Source: Paludisphaera soli
Lineage (GTDB): Bacteria; Planctomycetota; Planctomycetia; Isosphaerales; Isosphaeraceae
DNA length: 37,055 nucleotides
Assembly (NCBI RefSeq): GCF_011064595.1
Contig: NZ_JAALJI010000041.1
Span: 1-37,055, forward strand
Reading direction: 5' to 3'
Below, piece by piece: positions 3,922 to 11,981 of this stretch (positions are counted from its first letter, which is position 1; each line of letters begins with the position of its first letter). Under the pieces are notes generated by a model. It saw nothing but the letters and a program-made list of their open reading frames with translations, had not been told where the DNA came from and did no database searches. The position numbers and the translations under genes were made by a program.

Positions 3922-4174
3922 AAAGTATCGAGCGGTTCGGGCACCTGCAAGGGGGTGCCAGGATTCTTCTGAAAAATTAAGCGACCGACGAAGCTTCGCG
4001 AACGAGAGTCCGGCCGCGAGAGGCCCTTCCGCCCGTGGTGGTCAAACGTTATCTTCATGGTGGGATGGACGCGGACGGGGCGGCCGCCCCCGGGGCCGCG
4101 AGCGGGGAATCCGCGCGGTCCGGGGCCAATATCGGCGGGCGGCGGGCGAAAGGCATGTGGGAGGTATCCTGATC
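3922..4174. other. Intergenic region upstream of the ubiquitin-like operon
   Basis: No convincing gene is seen in this 253-bp divergent region. It has noticeably more A/T than its surroundings (for example GAAAAATTAAG near 3972). It carries a possible small hairpin, GGCACC with GGTGCC, near 3939-3958. A possible -10 element TATCTT is at 4050-4055, but the -35 at 17 bp spacing (TTCCGC) is poor. This is the likely location of the promoter for the four-gene operon. Confidence 0.4.
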
Positions 4175-4468
4175 ATGTCATACGGCGGAACGAGCGATCC
4201 TACGGGTGTGCAGGTGACGTTCTTGGACCAGACCGGCGCCAAGTCCGTGAAGGCGGTGATCGCGTTCACCGTCCCCGTCAGCCGAATCATCCCGAACATC
4301 ATCACCAAGATGAACCTGCCGGCCACGAGCCCCGACGGCCAGCCGATGAGCTACGCCCTCGACCACAAGGAAGGGGGGCGGCGGCTGCTGGAGAACTGGA
4401 ACCTCGTCGACGCCGGCATCCGCGACGGCGACCACCTGATCGTCTATCCCGAGGTCGTCGCCGGCTGA
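4175..4468 (+). CDS. Ubiquitin-like protein, YukD/EsaB-type beta-grasp fold
   Basis: Predicted protein modifier of a bacterial ubiquitin-like conjugation system. The 97-residue product starts at ATG 4175, 10 nt after GGGAGG; a longer in-frame extension to 3779 is not supported. The layout fits a YukD-like beta-grasp domain: an N-terminal strand pair (VQVTFLDQTG, then VIAFTVPVSR), a helix (IIPNIITKMNL), DGQPMSYALDH, and a terminal AGIRDGDHLIV strand, where the GxxDGD turn is typical of the family. The chain ends VVAG with no residues after the Gly, so a C-terminal glycine is already exposed for adenylation by the E1 two genes downstream. First gene of the Ubl-E2-E1-JAMM operon, with 61 bp to the next start. 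The beta-grasp assignment rests on motif pattern plus gene context. Confidence 0.85.
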   Translation: MSYGGTSDPTGVQVTFLDQTGAKSVKAVIAFTVPVSRIIPNIITKMNLPATSPDGQPMSYALDHKEGGRRLLENWNLVDAGIRDGDHLIVYPEVVAG

Positions 4469-4529
4469 ACCGGGGCGGTCGACGGGCGGGCGCGAGGGCG
4501 GTCGGGCGCGACGAGACGGATCCACGAAC

Positions 4530-5297
4530 ATGCATGAATCGCCAAGACTCCGGCGGCTCCGCAACGACCTGGCGGCCCTCGAGCGCCTCCGCGCCGAGAG
4601 CACCGTCTTCGACTTCCGCGCCCAGGGCGACCCCCCGCACCACTACCGGATCCACTTCCGGGGCCGGGGGCTCCAGCGCGACGACGGCAAGGTGAAGTTC
4701 GCCGCGGCGCACCAGGTCGAGATCAAGCTCGGCTCGTCGTACCCGCGGTCGATCCCCGAGATCCGCTGGCTGACGCCGGTGTACCATCCCAACATCTCCG
4801 AGATCGGGATGGTCTGCCTCGGCGGCTACGGGACGCACTGGGTCCCCAGCGTCCAGCTCGACGAGCTGTGCAACATGCTCTGGGACATGGCCCGCTACCA
4901 CAACTACGACGTCCGGAGCCCCTACAACCGCGACGCCGCCCTCTGGGCCGGCAACCAGACCGCCATCCCCTTCCCCACCGACCCGCGCCCGCTCCGGGAC
5001 GTCCGCGAGGCCCGGGGCCGCGTCGAGATCGAAGGCGACGCCCACCCCGCCCCCGCGCCGGCCCCGAGGGCCGACGCCGGCTCGGGGATCCGCGGCCTGC
5101 TGGGCGGCGCGAGCGACGCCGCGGCCGGGCGCGTCCGCCGGTTCCTCGACTGGCGCAACCGGCCGATCGACGAGCCCGCCCCCGGCCCGGCCCCGGACGA
5201 CGGGGTCGTGATCCTGGAGACGACGGTCGACGCCGCCGTCGCCGGCGACCCCCCGCCGGCCCCCCGCAACGAGGGCGACATCCTCTTCATCGACTGA
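4530..5297 (+). CDS. E2-like ubiquitin-conjugating enzyme (UBC fold) with low-complexity tail
   Basis: Predicted to accept the activated Ubl from the E1 as a thioester and pass it to a target. In the 255-residue product, residues 1-150 match the UBC fold: YPRSIPEIRW at 71-80, YHPNI with the HPN triad at 86-88, the likely catalytic Cys96 in MVCLGG, then W104-VPS and the helix LDELCNMLWDM, followed by SPYNRDAALW like the crossing-loop segment of eukaryotic E2s. Residues about 160-255 are Ala/Pro/Asp-rich and ordered-looking only at the end (VVILETT and GDILFID). The tail is unusual and could be a tether or docking peptide. The ATG at 4530 has only a weak purine-rich site. It lies 37 bp before the E1 gene. 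Confidence 0.9.
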   Translation: MHESPRLRRLRNDLAALERLRAESTVFDFRAQGDPPHHYRIHFRGRGLQRDDGKVKFAAAHQVEIKLGSSYPRSIPEIRWLTPVYHPNISEIGMVCLGGYGTHWVPSVQLDELCNMLWDMARYHNYDVRSPYNRDAALWAGNQTAIPFPTDPRPLRDVREARGRVEIEGDAHPAPAPAPRADAGSGIRGLLGGASDAAAGRVRRFLDWRNRPIDEPAPGPAPDDGVVILETTVDAAVAGDPPPAPRNEGDILFID

Positions 5298-5334
5298 GCG
5301 CGAGCCGAGCCGGCCCGGCCGGGACGAGAGGCCC

Positions 5335-6540
5335 ATGACCACGCAGCCGCCCCCCACGACCGACGAGCCCCCGCTGCGCATCGACGACGACGACCGCTAC
5401 GGACGGCTCCGCCTGATCTCGTGGTGGCGGCAGGAGCGGCTCGCCGCCGCCCGGATCCTCGTCGTCGGCGCCGGAGCGTTGGGGAACGAGGTCCTCAAGA
5501 ACCTCGCCCTGGTGGGCCTGGGGACCACCTACGTCGTCGACCTCGACGAGGTCGAACCCTCCAACCTCTCGCGATCGGTCCTCTTCCGGGCCGAGGACGG
5601 CGGCCGGCCCAAGGCCGAGGTCGCCGCCCGCCGCGCCGCCGAGCTGAACCCCGAGGTCGCCTTCATCCCGATCCACGGCGACGTGATCACCGACGTCGGC
5701 CTCGGGCTGTTCGCCCACGTCGACCTGGTGATCGGCTGCCTGGACAACCGCGAGGCCCGGCTCTGGGTCAACCGCCAGTGCTGGAAGGTGGGCGTCCCTT
5801 GGATCGACGCCGGCATCCAGGAGATCCAGGGGGTGGTGAAGGTCTTCACCCCGCCGGCCTCCGCCTGCTACGAATGCACGATGACCGAGCGCGACTACCA
5901 GCTCCTCAACCTGCGGTACAGCTGCCCGCTCCTGAAGCGGGACGAGATCCTGGCCGGCAAGGTCCCCACCGCGCCGACGATCGCCTCGATGATGGCGGCG
6001 CTGCAGGTCCAGGAGGCGCTCAAGCTGCTGCACGGCATGGCCGTCTCGGCGGGGACGGCCCTGGTCTTCAACGGCGTCGGCAACCAGTTCTACACGACCA
6101 AGCTGCCGTACCGCGAGGACTGCCTGAGCCACGAGACTTACCCCAAGCCGACCGGGATCGACCTGGGCCGATCGGCGACCGTCCGCGCCCTGTTCGACGC
6201 CGCCGCCCACGAGGGCCTGGAGGGGCCGATGTCGCTCGGGCTCGACCGCGAGCTGGTGGAGGCGGTGGAGTGCCCCCGCTGCGACGGCCGCCGCGAGGTG
6301 ATGCGGCCGAGGACCCGGGTCCGCCAGGCGGAGGCCCTCTGCCCCGACTGCCGCGAGGAAGGACGGCCGGTCGTCCTGAGCGCGATCGCCGAGGACTCGC
6401 CGCTGGCGGGGCGGACGCTGGCCGAGGTCGGCATCCCGCCGTTCGACGTGGTCCGGGTCGACGGCGGGGGCGAGTCCCGCTTCTTCCTCCTGGAAGCCGA
6501 CCGCGAGGGCCTCGCGGCCGGCGGGGGGGGCGTGCCGTGA
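5335..6540 (+). CDS. E1-like activating enzyme (ThiF/MoeB/HesA family) with C-terminal zinc ribbon
   Basis: Predicted to adenylate the C-terminal glycine of the Ubl and form a thioester with it. In the 401-residue product the ATP-binding Rossmann motif GAGALG is at 45-50, with VVDLDEVEPSNLSRS at 67-81, Lys93 and D137 in CLDNREAR completing the nucleotide-binding set at family-like spacing. C178 and C181 (CYEC) resemble one half of the structural zinc site. C197 in RYSCPLL lies before PTAPTIASMMAALQVQEALKLL and is the best candidate catalytic cysteine. After about residue 300 there is an extra module: a CPRC...CPDC zinc ribbon (313-339), then DSPLAGRTLAEVGI, which resembles a small alpha/beta TrkA_C-like motif. 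The ATG at 5335 follows GAGAGG. Its stop overlaps the next gene's start. Confidence 0.93.
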   Translation: MTTQPPPTTDEPPLRIDDDDRYGRLRLISWWRQERLAAARILVVGAGALGNEVLKNLALVGLGTTYVVDLDEVEPSNLSRSVLFRAEDGGRPKAEVAARRAAELNPEVAFIPIHGDVITDVGLGLFAHVDLVIGCLDNREARLWVNRQCWKVGVPWIDAGIQEIQGVVKVFTPPASACYECTMTERDYQLLNLRYSCPLLKRDEILAGKVPTAPTIASMMAALQVQEALKLLHGMAVSAGTALVFNGVGNQFYTTKLPYREDCLSHETYPKPTGIDLGRSATVRALFDAAAHEGLEGPMSLGLDRELVEAVECPRCDGRREVMRPRTRVRQAEALCPDCREEGRPVVLSAIAEDSPLAGRTLAEVGIPPFDVVRVDGGGESRFFLLEADREGLAAGGGGVP

Positions 6541-7937
6541 GCGGCGACGAGATGGTCTTCGGCGAGGTCCGGTTCCGCGAGCCGACCCGGGTCAGGCGGC
6601 CCGACCGCGACCCGAGGTTCGCCTGCGTCGCCTGCCAGTCCCCCGGCCCCGACGACCTCCCCATCTTCCTCGACCGCGCCCCGGCCGACCTGATCGAGCG
6701 GCACGCGCTGTCCGACACCTCCGTCGAGCTGGGGGGCGTGCTGCTGGGGAAGGAGTGCGTCGACCCGGACGGCGGCCGGCCGTTCGTCTGGATCACCCAG
6801 GCGCTGGAGGCCAAGCACTACGCCAACACCCAGGCCAGCTTCACCTACACCCACGACTCCTGGGAGGAGATCACCCGCGAGCGCGAGCGGCTCCACCCGG
6901 ACCTGGACGTGGTGGGCTGGTATCACACCCACCCGAGCTTCGGCATCTTCCTGTCCCATCACGACCTGTTCATCCATCAGAATTTCTTCTCGCAGCCGCT
7001 GCAGACCGCCTACGTCGTCGACCCGATCCAGGGGACGCGCGGATTCTTCCGGTGGCTCGACGGCCGGATGGTGCAGGTGGCCGGCTTCTGGCTCTGCGCG
7101 GAGCGATCCGAGCGGGTGGCCCTCTCGCGGCTGGTCGACCAGATGGAGAACCTCCCCGTCGCGGCCGGCGTCGGCTCCGGCGCGACCCTGTCCCCTCGCC
7201 TCGAGGCGGAGCTGCTCAAGATGATGAATCGACCCGCCCCCCCCCTCGGCGGCCCGGGCGACCGCCTGGCCCTCGCCGCGCTCGGCGGACTGCTCGGAGC
7301 CCTGCTCCTCGTCCTGGTCGCGGCGGCCGGCTTCTGGCTGGCCCGCGTCGACGCCCGGCTCGCGGAGCAAGGCGCGGCCCTCGCGGCCCTGAAGGGCGAC
7401 CTGGAGGACTCGGCGAACGCCCGCAAGGTCGCGGCCGACCTGCTGCTGGAGAAGGTCGGCGGCGAGACGCCGGAGCTGTTCGTGGCGCGGTACGAGACCC
7501 TCGCCCGGTCGCGCGACGACGCCCGCCGCCAGCTCGCCGCACAGCAGTCGGTGAACGAGGCCCTGGGCGTCCGCGTGAAGGACCTCGCGACCCTCTCCGC
7601 CTCGCTTCAGGGGGAGCTGGAGGCCGCGAGGAAGACCCTGACGAGCTACGAGGCCGACGCCAAGGAGGCCCCCAAGCTCCGCGAGCGGGTCGTCGAGCTG
7701 GAGCGATCCGCCGACGAGGACCGCCGCGAGATCCAGGACCAGCGCGCGATCCTCGCCACCGCCGAGGGAATCAAGGCGAACGAGGCCCACGTCGAGCTGG
7801 GCCGCTACCGCCTGCTGAGCTTCGCCGGGGCCCTGTCGAGCCTGCTGCTGGCGCTCGCGGCCGTCTTCTTCTACTACCGCGCCCTGCCGGCCCAGGCCAG
7901 CCGCGCCCCCGAGGCCGACGCCCGCCGGGGCGCCTGA
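6537..7937 (+). CDS. JAMM/MPN metalloprotease with two transmembrane segments and a coiled coil
   Basis: Predicted zinc isopeptidase that removes the Ubl from targets. Starting at GTG 6537, which overlaps the E1 stop (GTGA), the product has 466 residues; ATG 6552 is an alternative. The JAMM set is complete: Glu64 in VELGG, H130-T-H132-P, Ser140 and Asp143. Residues about 245-269 are a hydrophobic segment, residues 272-420 are rich in Ala/Leu/Glu/Arg and look like a long coiled coil, and a second hydrophobic segment covers about 427-447, followed by a short tail. The catalytic domain would be cytoplasmic and the coiled coil on the far side of the membrane. An N-terminal CVAC pair (30-33) is also present. 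This topology is unusual for a deubiquitinase-like enzyme. It ends 18 bp from a convergent gene. Confidence 0.9.
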   Translation: MSGDEMVFGEVRFREPTRVRRPDRDPRFACVACQSPGPDDLPIFLDRAPADLIERHALSDTSVELGGVLLGKECVDPDGGRPFVWITQALEAKHYANTQASFTYTHDSWEEITRERERLHPDLDVVGWYHTHPSFGIFLSHHDLFIHQNFFSQPLQTAYVVDPIQGTRGFFRWLDGRMVQVAGFWLCAERSERVALSRLVDQMENLPVAAGVGSGATLSPRLEAELLKMMNRPAPPLGGPGDRLALAALGGLLGALLLVLVAAAGFWLARVDARLAEQGAALAALKGDLEDSANARKVAADLLLEKVGGETPELFVARYETLARSRDDARRQLAAQQSVNEALGVRVKDLATLSASLQGELEAARKTLTSYEADAKEAPKLRERVVELERSADEDRREIQDQRAILATAEGIKANEAHVELGRYRLLSFAGALSSLLLALAAVFFYYRALPAQASRAPEADARRGA

Positions 7938-7955: not shown

Positions 7956-9881
7956 TCAGGCCAGCGCGGCCTGCGCCTCGGCGATCAGCTCGTCCAGGGT
8001 CGGGTCGAACCCGCCGCGATCCTCGTGCCAGCGGGCGGCCTCGACGACCCAGCGGGCGGCCTCCTCCTTGAGCCCCGCGCGGGCCTCGCCGATGGCGAGG
8101 ACGGCCATGTCGTAGCCGTTCCAGGCCGAGTCCAGCTCCATCGACCGTCGGGCCGAGGTCGCGGCCCCCGCGTGGTCGCCGGCCCGGCAGAGGGCCAGGG
8201 CCAGGGTGTTCCAGTAGGTCGGGTCGTCCGGCGAGGCCGCGACGGCCTCGCGGGCGAGCTCGGCGGCGAACCCGCGCTCGTCGATCCCGGGGTCCGGCCG
8301 GGTGGCCAGGAGCCAGGCCAGGTCGTTGAGGCAGTCGAGCCGGAGCCGGGCCGCCGACGCGTCGGAAGGATCCACCTCCAGTCGGCCGGCGAGAAGCTCC
8401 AGGGCGTGGCGACGGGCGGCGGCGGCCTCGTCGAGGTCGCCCGCGGCCCGCGAGGACCGCGCCATCGCGATGTATCGCGAGGCCAGCCGGACCTCGAGCG
8501 GGGCCTCGGGCGCGGGCCCCGAGGACGCGCCGGCGAGCGCGGCTCGGACCGCCGCCTCGTCCCCGGCGGACTCGACCGACCCCCCGTCTCCTGACCGCAG
8601 CCGTGCGACCAGGCCGCCGGCGGCCACCGCGTACGCCGCGTTCGGAAACGCGTTCAGCAGGCAGTCGATCGAGTAGATCCCGAGGAAGGCGGAGATCGCC
8701 GCCATCGTCCCCAGATCGGGCTCGGTCCAGCGACGCGCGGGGTATCGCAGGGTGAACATCAAGGCGGGCCCCAGAAGGAGCCCCTGAAAGGAGAGAAGGC
8801 CCACGAACCCCGACGTGCCGAAGAAGATGATCCAGAGCCCGTCGGTGATCGTGAGGTCCTTGCCGCTGTCGCTGTAGACGCGCGACCGCCCCCACCCTCC
8901 CCAGCCCAGGATTGGCCGCTCCATCGCCTTGCGGACCAGGAGGTCCTCGTTCTGGAACCGGAACTCCAGGGACTGCGCGCGGGCCCGGTCGAAGTTCTGG
9001 GAGAGGAACGAGATCAGGGGGCGGTAGTCCCAGGTGTTCATGCCCCGGACGCCGACGTAGACGAACGTCGCGGCGATCAGCGCGAGCATGGGCAGCCGGG
9101 TGTTGAAGCGGGTGGAGAGCCAGAGCACCGCCACCCCCACGCCCAGCAGCCCGATCGCGCCGCTGGCCCGGCAGAGGACCGTCGTGAGCAGCAGCAACGG
9201 CAGCCAGAACCGGCCGAAGGAGAGGCCCAGGAGGCGGTCGAGATTCCGCGAACGCCACAGCCAGAGGGCGCAAAGGCTCGTGACCGACATCCACATGCCC
9301 AGCTCGAGCCCTCGGGAGAGGAACACGCGAGGACGCGCACCGCCGAGCCTCACGTCCTCGTAGAACCGCAGGGCGTAGACCTTCGAGGCGATGATCGGCG
9401 AGATGGTCATCTCGATCCAGCAGAGCGGCATGTAGATCAGGCCGCCGACGACGATCCCGACCGTGAGGTCGCGCAGGCTCGCGGCGTCGCTGAAGTGGAT
9501 CCGGCCCACCAGGTAGGGCAGGCCCCAGTAGTTGAGGACCCCGATGCAGGTCGACAGCCCGTCATACGGCCCCAGGCCGTTCACGAGCGACGTCGCCATC
9601 GAGCTCGTGCAGAAGATCACCACCGGGATGTCCAGCGGCGAGAACCTCAGCGCGGCGAACCGATCCGGGCAGAAGATCAGGCTGGCGAGCAGGATGCCCC
9701 AGGTGAAGGCGGAGACCTTCGAGTAGTCGGGCAGGCCGCCGAGCGGGATGGACGACGGCGGCAGGAACAACCACGCGCCCACGATCGCGGTGACGACGGC
9801 GACGCGACGCGGGAAGACGATGAAGAGGATCAAGCAGACCGGTACCCAGGCGATCAGGGCGACGGGGACGAGAGCTTGCAC
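7956..9881 (-). CDS. O-antigen ligase/polymerase-like membrane protein with C-terminal TPR-like region
   Basis: Predicted inner-membrane protein of surface polysaccharide assembly (Wzy/WaaL type). With the GTG at 9881 (GAGG about 11 nt upstream) it has 641 residues; a longer frame reaches 10226 but its first 115 residues are Arg/Pro-rich and look non-coding. About ten hydrophobic segments fill the first 440 residues, with the characteristic periplasmic-loop signature RKAMERPILGWGGWGRSRV near 350. The last 190 residues are soluble and helical, with TPR-like repeats (AWLLATRPDPG, PDDPTYWNTLALALCRAGD, ALKEEAA-like helices). The fusion of polymerase and repeat domain suggests recruitment of partner proteins. 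Substrate unknown. It converges on the JAMM gene. Confidence 0.8.
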   Translation of the reverse strand: MQALVPVALIAWVPVCLILFIVFPRRVAVVTAIVGAWLFLPPSSIPLGGLPDYSKVSAFTWGILLASLIFCPDRFAALRFSPLDIPVVIFCTSSMATSLVNGLGPYDGLSTCIGVLNYWGLPYLVGRIHFSDAASLRDLTVGIVVGGLIYMPLCWIEMTISPIIASKVYALRFYEDVRLGGARPRVFLSRGLELGMWMSVTSLCALWLWRSRNLDRLLGLSFGRFWLPLLLLTTVLCRASGAIGLLGVGVAVLWLSTRFNTRLPMLALIAATFVYVGVRGMNTWDYRPLISFLSQNFDRARAQSLEFRFQNEDLLVRKAMERPILGWGGWGRSRVYSDSGKDLTITDGLWIIFFGTSGFVGLLSFQGLLLGPALMFTLRYPARRWTEPDLGTMAAISAFLGIYSIDCLLNAFPNAAYAVAAGGLVARLRSGDGGSVESAGDEAAVRAALAGASSGPAPEAPLEVRLASRYIAMARSSRAAGDLDEAAAARRHALELLAGRLEVDPSDASAARLRLDCLNDLAWLLATRPDPGIDERGFAAELAREAVAASPDDPTYWNTLALALCRAGDHAGAATSARRSMELDSAWNGYDMAVLAIGEARAGLKEEAARWVVEAARWHEDRGGFDPTLDELIAEAQAALA

Positions 9882-11711: not shown

Positions 11712-11981
11712 ATGAGCGACGATCTCCAGTTCGAAGAGGTCCGCCTCTGCGAGGTCGCCAACGAGGTGGAGGCGACCCTGGTCGTCAACCTCCTGAAGGA
11801 CGACGGCATCCCCGCCCGCAGCGACGCCACCCCGGCCGGCGGCGTCTTCGGGGGCCTGCCGTTCGAATCCGGACACGGCGTCTACGTCACCTCGAACAAC
11901 GCCCGGAGGGCCTTGCAGGTCCTCTCGAACTACCCGCACTTCCAGGACCTGAAGAACGTCCACGAACCGCTCAGCGACTGA
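11712..11981 (+). CDS. DUF2007-like small protein
   Basis: An 89-residue soluble protein. The start at 11712 is fixed by GAGGGAGGAATCCG directly before the ATG. The sequence follows the DUF2007 (putative signal-transducing) pattern: an N-terminal strand (RLCEVANEVEATLVVNLL), KDDGIPARSDATP, GGVFGGLPFE, then GVYVTSNNARRALQVL, the typical ferredoxin-like arrangement. Family members are of unknown biochemical role. It lies about 100 bp after the secreted repeat protein, and the glycosyltransferase reading frame begins around its stop codon. Confidence 0.8.
   Translation: MSDDLQFEEVRLCEVANEVEATLVVNLLKDDGIPARSDATPAGGVFGGLPFESGHGVYVTSNNARRALQVLSNYPHFQDLKNVHEPLSD

Follow-up and report, generated by a model that had tools for sequence, protein, structure and literature searches.

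Several bacterial systems are known in which the parts of a ubiquitin-like pathway are encoded side by side. Type II CBASS (cyclic-oligonucleotide-based anti-phage signaling system) and 6A-MBL carry E1-E2 fusions, with a nucleotidyltransferase or a metallo-beta-lactamase (MBL) as the partner. In its abstract, a 2011 paper by Burroughs, Iyer and Aravind reportedly predicted bacterial RING E3s together with E1, E2, JAB and ubiquitin-like proteins (Ubls), as well as a UFD on the E1 and possible conjugation of YukD-like Ubls; in view of that prediction, the general kind of system described here is treated as already predicted. Ubl-JAB-E1-E2 operons were reported by Iyer et al. in 2006, the pertinent sections of which place YukD with ESAT-6 export (PMC1779556); the words 'planctomycete', 'Rhodopirellula' and 'Pirellula' are absent from the text of PMC1779556. 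According to the portions of a 2024 review that deal with Bil (PMC11354881), a single operon encodes Ubl, E1, E2 and JAMM, in which BilA contains a pair of Ubl domains, BilD a pair of adenylation domains and BilB the site CEHH; homologues of the human E2 catalytic domain are given there for only four bacterial phyla, Planctomycetota not included. Bub operons, in the excerpts that describe them, combine a protease gene with those of a Ubl, an E1 and an E2 (PMC12687455); out of 544, a link to CapW or CapH+CapP is given for 219 and one to CapK+CapS for 59 (PMC13373217, in part). The present analysis concerns four genes at positions 4175-7937 on the (+) strand of a 37,055-nucleotide stretch of Paludisphaera soli DNA (the window; contig C134 in a genome of 7.97 Mb). 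They encode a Ubl, an E2, an E1 and a JAMM protease, and are proposed, with moderate confidence, to run a eukaryote-like cycle of Ubl conjugation and deconjugation on the cytoplasmic side of the inner membrane, the role of which is most likely in membrane-protein biogenesis or quality control.

The Ubl gene (4175..4468, 97 residues, ATG start), preceded by a Shine-Dalgarno-like GGAGG at 4160..4164, is followed after 61 bp by the E2 gene (4530..5297), after a further 37 bp by the E1 gene (5335..6540) and, with a 4-nt overlap (-4 bp), by the JAMM gene (6537..7937, 466 residues, GTG start). All four products exceed the Pfam cut-offs (YukD, UQ_con, ThiF and JAB/Prok-JAB) and carry the catalytic motifs of their families, while NCBIfam gave generic ThiF/MoeB-type names and matches below cut-off and nothing else. 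The initial annotation of this locus had the coordinates, the gene calls, the short or overlapping junctions and the four identities right, and its membrane JAMM and E1 zinc ribbon are borne out by the results below. Three features go beyond it: the Ala-Gly C-terminus of the Ubl, a UFD-like domain on the E1 and a motif common to the E2 and the JAMM.

The Ubl matches YukD at 1.7e-14 (54.7 bits, cut-off 27) and is the sole YukD match in the genome. Its assignment to the YukD/beta-grasp family rests on Pfam, since a search of the solved structures with the Ubl sequence profile gave no significant match (best 0.024). The protein ends in PEVVAG without a tail. The C-terminal PExxAG is found in 80/80 relatives, the pair of small residues being Ala-Gly and not Gly-Gly; nothing follows it in 40 of the 80, and 1 to 68 residues follow in the rest. 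Variable tails after a conserved PExxAG form the pattern expected of a modifier whose end is exposed by processing. The Ubl of a congener (L034) differs at 11 codons, every one of them synonymously, and that of a more distant congener (L035) shows 27 synonymous versus 8 non-synonymous differences. The synonymous-only differences in the former, together with the retention of the E2 across the family, argue that the operon is more than a chance assembly.

The E2 (UQ_con, 1.2e-11, score 44.9 with a cut-off of 27) contains His86-Pro-Asn (HPN, residues 86-88), Cys96 and a long low-complexity C-terminal tail. HPN and Cys are kept in 76/77 first-position E2 relatives. The best solved relatives, among the best 60 of 235 matches in a single-sequence phmmer search, are eukaryotic Ubc13/UBE2N chains, including the yeast one (4.4e-10). 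Six-gene relatives of the locus encode a second E2, which is likened to a ubiquitin E2 variant (UEV) partner because the catalytic Cys is absent in 21/21 and HPN mostly kept (18/21). Two stretches of the tail of the first E2 resemble SUMO-interaction motifs: the internal GVVILE (5202..5219), an acidic-flanked hydrophobic segment that stands out in the alignment and might have such a meaning, and the terminal GDILFID (5274..5294). The acidic-hydrophobic end motif closes 70/77 first-position E2s, compared with 1/8534 other open reading frames (ORFs). The N-terminus of the JAMM, DEMVFGE (6546..6566), resembles this E2 C-terminus, and a similar motif begins 62/63 long JAMMs by a relaxed pattern (background 0.145 per 100 residues) and 31/63 by a stricter one, the E2 pattern and both JAMM patterns having been drawn up after the sequences had been seen. 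A docking role is probable for the motif, with the Ubl or the UFD-like E1 domain as its partner.

The E1 (ThiF, 3.8e-55) has 401 residues and one ThiF-type adenylation domain followed by a C-terminal domain. Its motifs are GAGALGNE from residue 45, D137-N138, Cys178xxCys181, Cys197, Cys263-x2-His266 and the CxxC...CxxC zinc ribbon (Cys313/316/336/339; 6271..6351), which lies inside the C-terminal domain; the ribbon Cys residues are absent from the E1 of L041, L043, L046 and L050. Cys197 (5923..5925) is invariant in 49/49 aligned E1s, namely those of 48 of the 75 E1-bearing loci and that of the window, and is the candidate catalytic Cys. The AlphaFold2 model has a mean pLDDT of 89.5, and its residues 16-268 match MoeB and ThiF with VIA Z scores of 31.0 and 30.9. 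For 18 among the 50 structure matches listed, the alignment of the model with a eukaryotic E1 chain (UBA3, SAE2, UBA7, Uba1 or UBA6) extends to model residue 386-389 and reaches the C-terminal end of that chain, over about 286-306 residues compared with about 210-240 for matches to the adenylation domain only. The best-fitting of these is SAE2 (Z 28.6, 305 residues, 3.9 Å); the other 17 have rmsd values of 4.7 to 8.0 Å, which would be expected where two domains differ in orientation. Most UBA3 and SAE2 matches listed for the full-length model end before the C-terminal domain. Because the longer model alignments run through to the end of the eukaryotic chains, the extra domain (residues about 270-390; 6142..6504) most likely corresponds to the UFD, with the zinc ribbon inserted. 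Hydropathy gives only one marginal hydrophobic segment for the E1, inside the nucleotide-binding domain.

The JAMM passes the cut-offs of both JAB (6.8e-9) and Prok-JAB (1.1e-6) and has the ligands and motif residues Glu64, His130-x-His132, Ser140 and Asp143. This pattern is intact in 91/94 relatives, the three exceptions being fragments in L100 and L107. Two hydrophobic segments are seen by hydropathy, at about residues 241-273 (7257..7355) and 425-450 (7809..7886), and are taken as transmembrane (TM) segments; between them lies a coiled-coil-like stretch, recognized by eye and by weak SMC-type matches. The same hydropathy analysis gave no TM segment for the Ubl or the E2.

The system is widespread and regular. 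A search with the E2 found it in 44/99 relatives and in 38/45 genomes of the family (own included), with one close copy each; leaving the own genome aside, 36 of 44 family genomes have an E2 with 56-81% identity. The seven negative genomes include all four sampled from one genus, and 4/7 are only 64-85% complete. A Ubl-profile scan gave 185 encoding stretches in named genomes, the best 80 of which are used for the locus counts. At these loci, found through the Ubl alone, the E2 is present in 78/80, the E1 in 75/80 and at least one JAMM in 71/80, the opposite of the lack of co-occurrence that, according to the initial annotation, would refute its reading. Six of the nine loci without JAMM finish at or near a contig end; L073, L086 and L089 do not. 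The commonest orders are Ubl-E2-E1-JAMM (39 loci, and two more differing by an over-long ORF) and Ubl-E2-JAMM-E1-JAMM-E2 (20 loci). The four-part set recurs in Isosphaeraceae and Pirellulaceae with its order largely kept, and in one family genome (L045) the JAMM is relocated and inverted. The order E1-Ubl-E2-JAMM occurs in L096, L116 and L120, from metagenome-assembled genomes labelled Wallbacteria, Planctomycetota and Riflebacteria; these could be mislabelled as to phylum, or could have acquired the clusters by transfer.

The initial annotation pointed to the absence of an adjacent E3, which may suggest that the system has none. The statement itself holds inside the window and fails for the genome and for most relatives; the suggestion finds no support, a likely E3 being encoded elsewhere in the genome. 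A cluster of ORFs found beside the operon consists of membrane proteins with a C-terminal Prok-RING_1 domain (Pfam). Their gene adjoins the Ubl operon in 55/80 loci (16 upstream, 39 downstream), or 55/63 when truncated loci are excluded; 17 of the 25 loci without it were judged truncated and eight, including L066 of the genus of the window, were not. The own-genome RING gene, with a Prok-RING_1 match past cut-off, lies on contig C1 at 276818-277636, and a RING gene is present in 6/6 genomes of the genus searched. None of 14 control genomes (0/14) passed the Prok-RING_1 cut-off. A scan of 392 genomes of the phylum gave the Ubl in 33, a RING-profile match in 53 and both in 29 (hypergeometric 3.9e-25, with relatedness uncontrolled and many of the RING matches short); these scans scored no more than 12 and 6 initial candidates in each genome, so that some misses are possible. 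Up to three tandem RING genes follow the operon in L118 (13898-16723) and L126 (14057-16666).

The model of the RING protein of Singulisphaera acidiphila (pLDDT 89.7) shows, besides a long helix at the N-terminus, a middle domain and a zinc domain. Seven Cys of the zinc domain are invariant in 50/50 aligned proteins (50 of the 65 clustered ORFs), and His275 is present in 90% or more. The middle domain matches TtfA with a VIA Z of 14.9 over 159 residues at 3.7 Å (Foldseek 7.9e-7), and three chains of translocon complexes: 7tm3_4 (Z 12.6, 7.4 Å), 9i78_4 (10.6, 6.7 Å) and 6w6l_7 (10.2, 3.5 Å). After these four, the next structure drops to Z 7.9. The chains 7tm3_4 and 6w6l_7 are presumably CCDC47, to judge from the complexes. 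The matched residues 76-372 of 9i78_4 agree closely with the globular part of CCDC47, docked as 76-370 in the pertinent section of PMC12572126. CCDC47 is a member of the PAT complex, which is described as an intramembrane chaperone of the multipass translocon. By model comparison, the fold of the middle domain is that of TtfA and CCDC47. The likeness is one of fold only, as neither protein was retrieved from the solved structures by the sequence profile of the RING protein, which gave weak RING/PHD-type matches (best 0.0012, the zinc domain of cellulose synthase). Basic residues after the TM segment of the own-genome protein suggest that its zinc domain faces the cytosol.

A further link to the membrane is found next to the operon. 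The gene of an M48 (Ste24/HtpX-type) membrane protease follows the JAMM gene, by a strict rule, in 10/17 Isosphaeraceae-like loci with context (L066-L090); by eye it is also near or overlapping in L067, L068, L069, L072 and L080, which gives 15/17, and none is present in L066 and L087. According to the initial annotation, sequence does not reveal the role of the system. A membrane-protein role is nevertheless favored over defense by the middle-domain fold of the RING protein, by both membrane anchors, by the M48 gene nearby in one family and by the wide, regular distribution, although none of these proves it.

Computation shows which genes are present, how they are conserved and linked, which motifs they carry and which folds are predicted; on this basis the proposed cycle can be described in some detail. 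The Ubl would be produced with an Ala-Gly end or, in relatives, be trimmed to Ala-Gly by the JAMM. The E1 would adenylate this end and then carry the Ubl on Cys197, presumably as a thioester. The UFD-like domain of the E1 would present the E2, and Cys96 of the E2 would receive the Ubl. The membrane-anchored RING protein with its TtfA/CCDC47-type domain, encoded elsewhere in the genome, would bring the E2~Ubl to proteins at the membrane, which may be the substrates, and the JAMM with its two TM segments would strip the tag. The Ubl, E1 and E2 would be soluble, and the writer and the eraser both membrane-bound. It is very likely that covalent conjugation of the Ubl takes place. That the RING protein is the E3 of the system is probable, a judgment moderated a little by the fact that ZZ structures fit its zinc domain slightly better than RING structures do. 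The chances that the role is quality control of membrane proteins are about even. It is possible, if rather unlikely, that the system performs an analog of endoplasmic-reticulum-associated degradation (ERAD), in which a CCDC47-fold RING ligase at the Sec translocon or inner membrane would tag faulty multipass proteins for M48 or another membrane protease. The UFD-bearing E1, the HPN E2 and the membrane JAMM would suit such a process, and the UEV-like partner of the relatives could build chains. If true, planctomycetes would employ an ERAD-like logic, either as an ancestor-like state or by convergence.

Several observations weigh against the membrane conjugation cycle. No conjugate has been seen to date, and Bacillus subtilis YukD is not conjugated, according to work cited in the part of PMC1779556 concerned. 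The RING gene is unlinked to the operon in each of the six genus genomes, own included; 24/53 RING-positive genomes of the phylum scan are without a Ubl match and 4/33 Ubl genomes without a RING match. Two genomes (G048 and G071; loci L167, 8693-9508, (-) strand, and L168, 9002-9817, (-)) keep a RING protein of this family with no Ubl, E2, E1 or JAMM nearby and no Ubl found in the genome, so the RING protein can exist without the Ubl core. The setting of the L167 gene, with lipoprotein/transglutaminase-like genes on one side and Nudix-like genes on the other, is by eye that of the Pirellulaceae loci. L169 encodes a related protein with a TM segment and middle domain and no RING (9066-9779, (-)), which also counts against the proposal and suggests that the middle domain belongs to a wider planctomycete family. 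A fold shared with TtfA and CCDC47 is no proof of function. The zinc domain aligns best to the ZZ domain of p62 (Z 5.1), then to the BIRC7 RING (4.2) and the Prp19 U-box (4.0); as all these scores are low and ZZ comes first, the label 'RING' is based chiefly on Pfam and on the pattern of the ligands, and the relative in L075 falls just under the Prok-RING_1 cut-off. The M48 linkage is absent from 42/42 other loci with context and so is limited to one group; in the genus of the window it is unlinked, the own-genome M48 gene being on another contig.

Other explanations have to be considered. The known bacterial Ubl pathways appear mainly defensive in the sections of PMC12687455 that treat them, and the present system, like Bil and type II CBASS, might mark proteins of the phage or of the host in the course of an infection. 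The E1 does match the PADLOC E1-E2 (best 3.1e-15) and BilD (2.5e-8) models, and the JAMM matches the PADLOC JAB models weakly (9.2e-4). However, defense is an unlikely role for a system present as one close copy in each of 38/45 family genomes, its gene order largely preserved over two families. Furthermore, PADLOC gave nothing at 0.001 for ten flanking genes, among the flanks a pyrophosphatase, an epimerase and a glycosyltransferase can be named, and none of the 19 stretches fitting a pattern in a viral collection encodes a relative. The membrane anchors and the reversibility afforded by the JAMM would suit a dedicated regulatory pathway, in which the Ubl controls the activity of a single protein or a small set of particular proteins, membrane or cytosolic, instead of serving general quality control, and the tandem RING genes in L118 and L126 look as if there were several ligases or targets. 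No candidate substrate gene is conspicuous in the flanks, however, and the transglutaminase-like, Nudix, GNAT-like and P-II-like neighbors, found mainly at Pirellulaceae-type loci, looked like general synteny. Such a specialized pathway is improbable.

The remaining two explanations have very little probability. The Pfam name and score of the Ubl would fit an accessory of type VII (ESX/WXG100) secretion, where the Ubl would act non-covalently like YukD/EsaB, and one WXG100 match past cut-off does exist in the genome (2.6e-7). That match is a lone one on another contig (C126), no secretion family was recognized among the ten window proteins scanned (FtsK-type proteins were not searched genome-wide), the only YukD match of the genome sits with E1, E2 and JAMM, and the C-terminal Ala-Gly is conserved, all of which makes a secretion accessory hardly credible. 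It is just as hard to accept a sulfur carrier or cofactor pathway of the ThiS/MoaD-ThiF/MoeB type with an accessory E2-like protein. The E1 adenylation domain is structurally closest to MoeB/ThiF, but contig C35 codes for another protein of the ThiF family, and the scan of ten window proteins turned up no family of the sulfur pathways. An E2 with HPN and Cys, a UFD-like domain and a RING partner have no known role in such a pathway, and the explanation was rejected on these three features.

Besides the enzymes named above, the operon has as a neighbor a large membrane/TPR-like protein on the opposite strand. At 11748-11981 (+) the window encodes a small protein with a weak likeness to DUF2007 (0.0017, under cut-off), a putative signal-transducing family. 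At 19 loci a transglutaminase-like gene lies upstream of the Ubl operon, the one at L111:7089-8753 alone having been checked with Pfam. Two proteasome-type matches past cut-off were found in the genome; neither is adjacent to the operon, and no link to a proteasome-type partner can be claimed. The better of the two may be HslV.

A diverged sister set is present in L053 and L056-L058. It consists of a Ubl (about 40% identical), an E1 and a JAMM, with an E2 bearing a zinc-ribbon tail a few kb on; by Pfam, an FHA protein in L053 and a RING protein in L058 are encoded within the set. Fusions of Prok-RING to a trypsin-like protease occur at L053:7734-9110, L056:9604-10911 (-) and L058:9871-11190 (-) (Trypsin_2 1.4e-21 to 6.6e-18), the RING part of the L056 fusion being just below the Prok-RING cut-off. 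A RING joined to a trypsin-like protease may point to proteolysis at the envelope.

As the initial annotation had supposed for a predicted prokaryotic ubiquitin-type set, no experimental work on the planctomycete system was found in the open-licence literature, outside which most subscription journals lie. Nor was a description found there of a RING protein with a TtfA/CCDC47-type domain, of a second E2 without the Cys, of the motif common to E2 and JAMM or of linkage to M48. The system is nevertheless common and regularly kept in planctomycetes, including cultured strains such as Singulisphaera acidiphila. Two questions become testable with it: the function of Ubl tagging in bacteria beyond immunity, and the existence of bacterial relatives, with RING and UFD, of the eukaryotic cascade.

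The comparison with known systems is as follows. RING-containing systems are the reported subject of the 2011 prediction, and the RING proteins described here are matched by Pfam Prok-RING_1. As in Bil, the Ubl, E1, E2 and JAMM genes stand together in an operon. Unlike Bil, as it is portrayed in the portions of the review considered, the planctomycete system has a single-domain Ubl of 97 residues, HPN with Cys96 instead of CEHH and one adenylation domain; a UFD-like E1 end and a RING protein set it apart further. As the tandem Ubl, the CEHH site of the E2 and the two E1 adenylation domains are all missing, the locus does not belong to Bil. With Bub it has in common the operon of Ubl, E1, E2 and protease genes; regulators of the CapW, CapH+CapP or CapK+CapS type were not noticed at the planctomycete loci, for which no dedicated search was made. 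Family matches to the E1 adenylation domain and the JAMM relate it to Cap2/Cap3 of type II CBASS and to 6A-MBL, from which it differs by a separate E2 and a free Ubl. The middle domain of the RING protein has the fold of TtfA and CCDC47, neither of which is known to carry a RING. The six-gene relatives, in which an active-looking E2 is paired with a Cys-less one, resemble Ubc13-Mms2. The single adenylation domain, the Ala-Gly end of the Ubl and the likely placement of both ligase and protease in the membrane distinguish the system from the eukaryotic ubiquitin, NEDD8 and SUMO cascades. With its UFD-like E1 end, its HPN E2 and its RING-type partner, all of which those cascades also possess, and with the Cys-less E2 of its relatives, its layout looks closer to the eukaryotic one.

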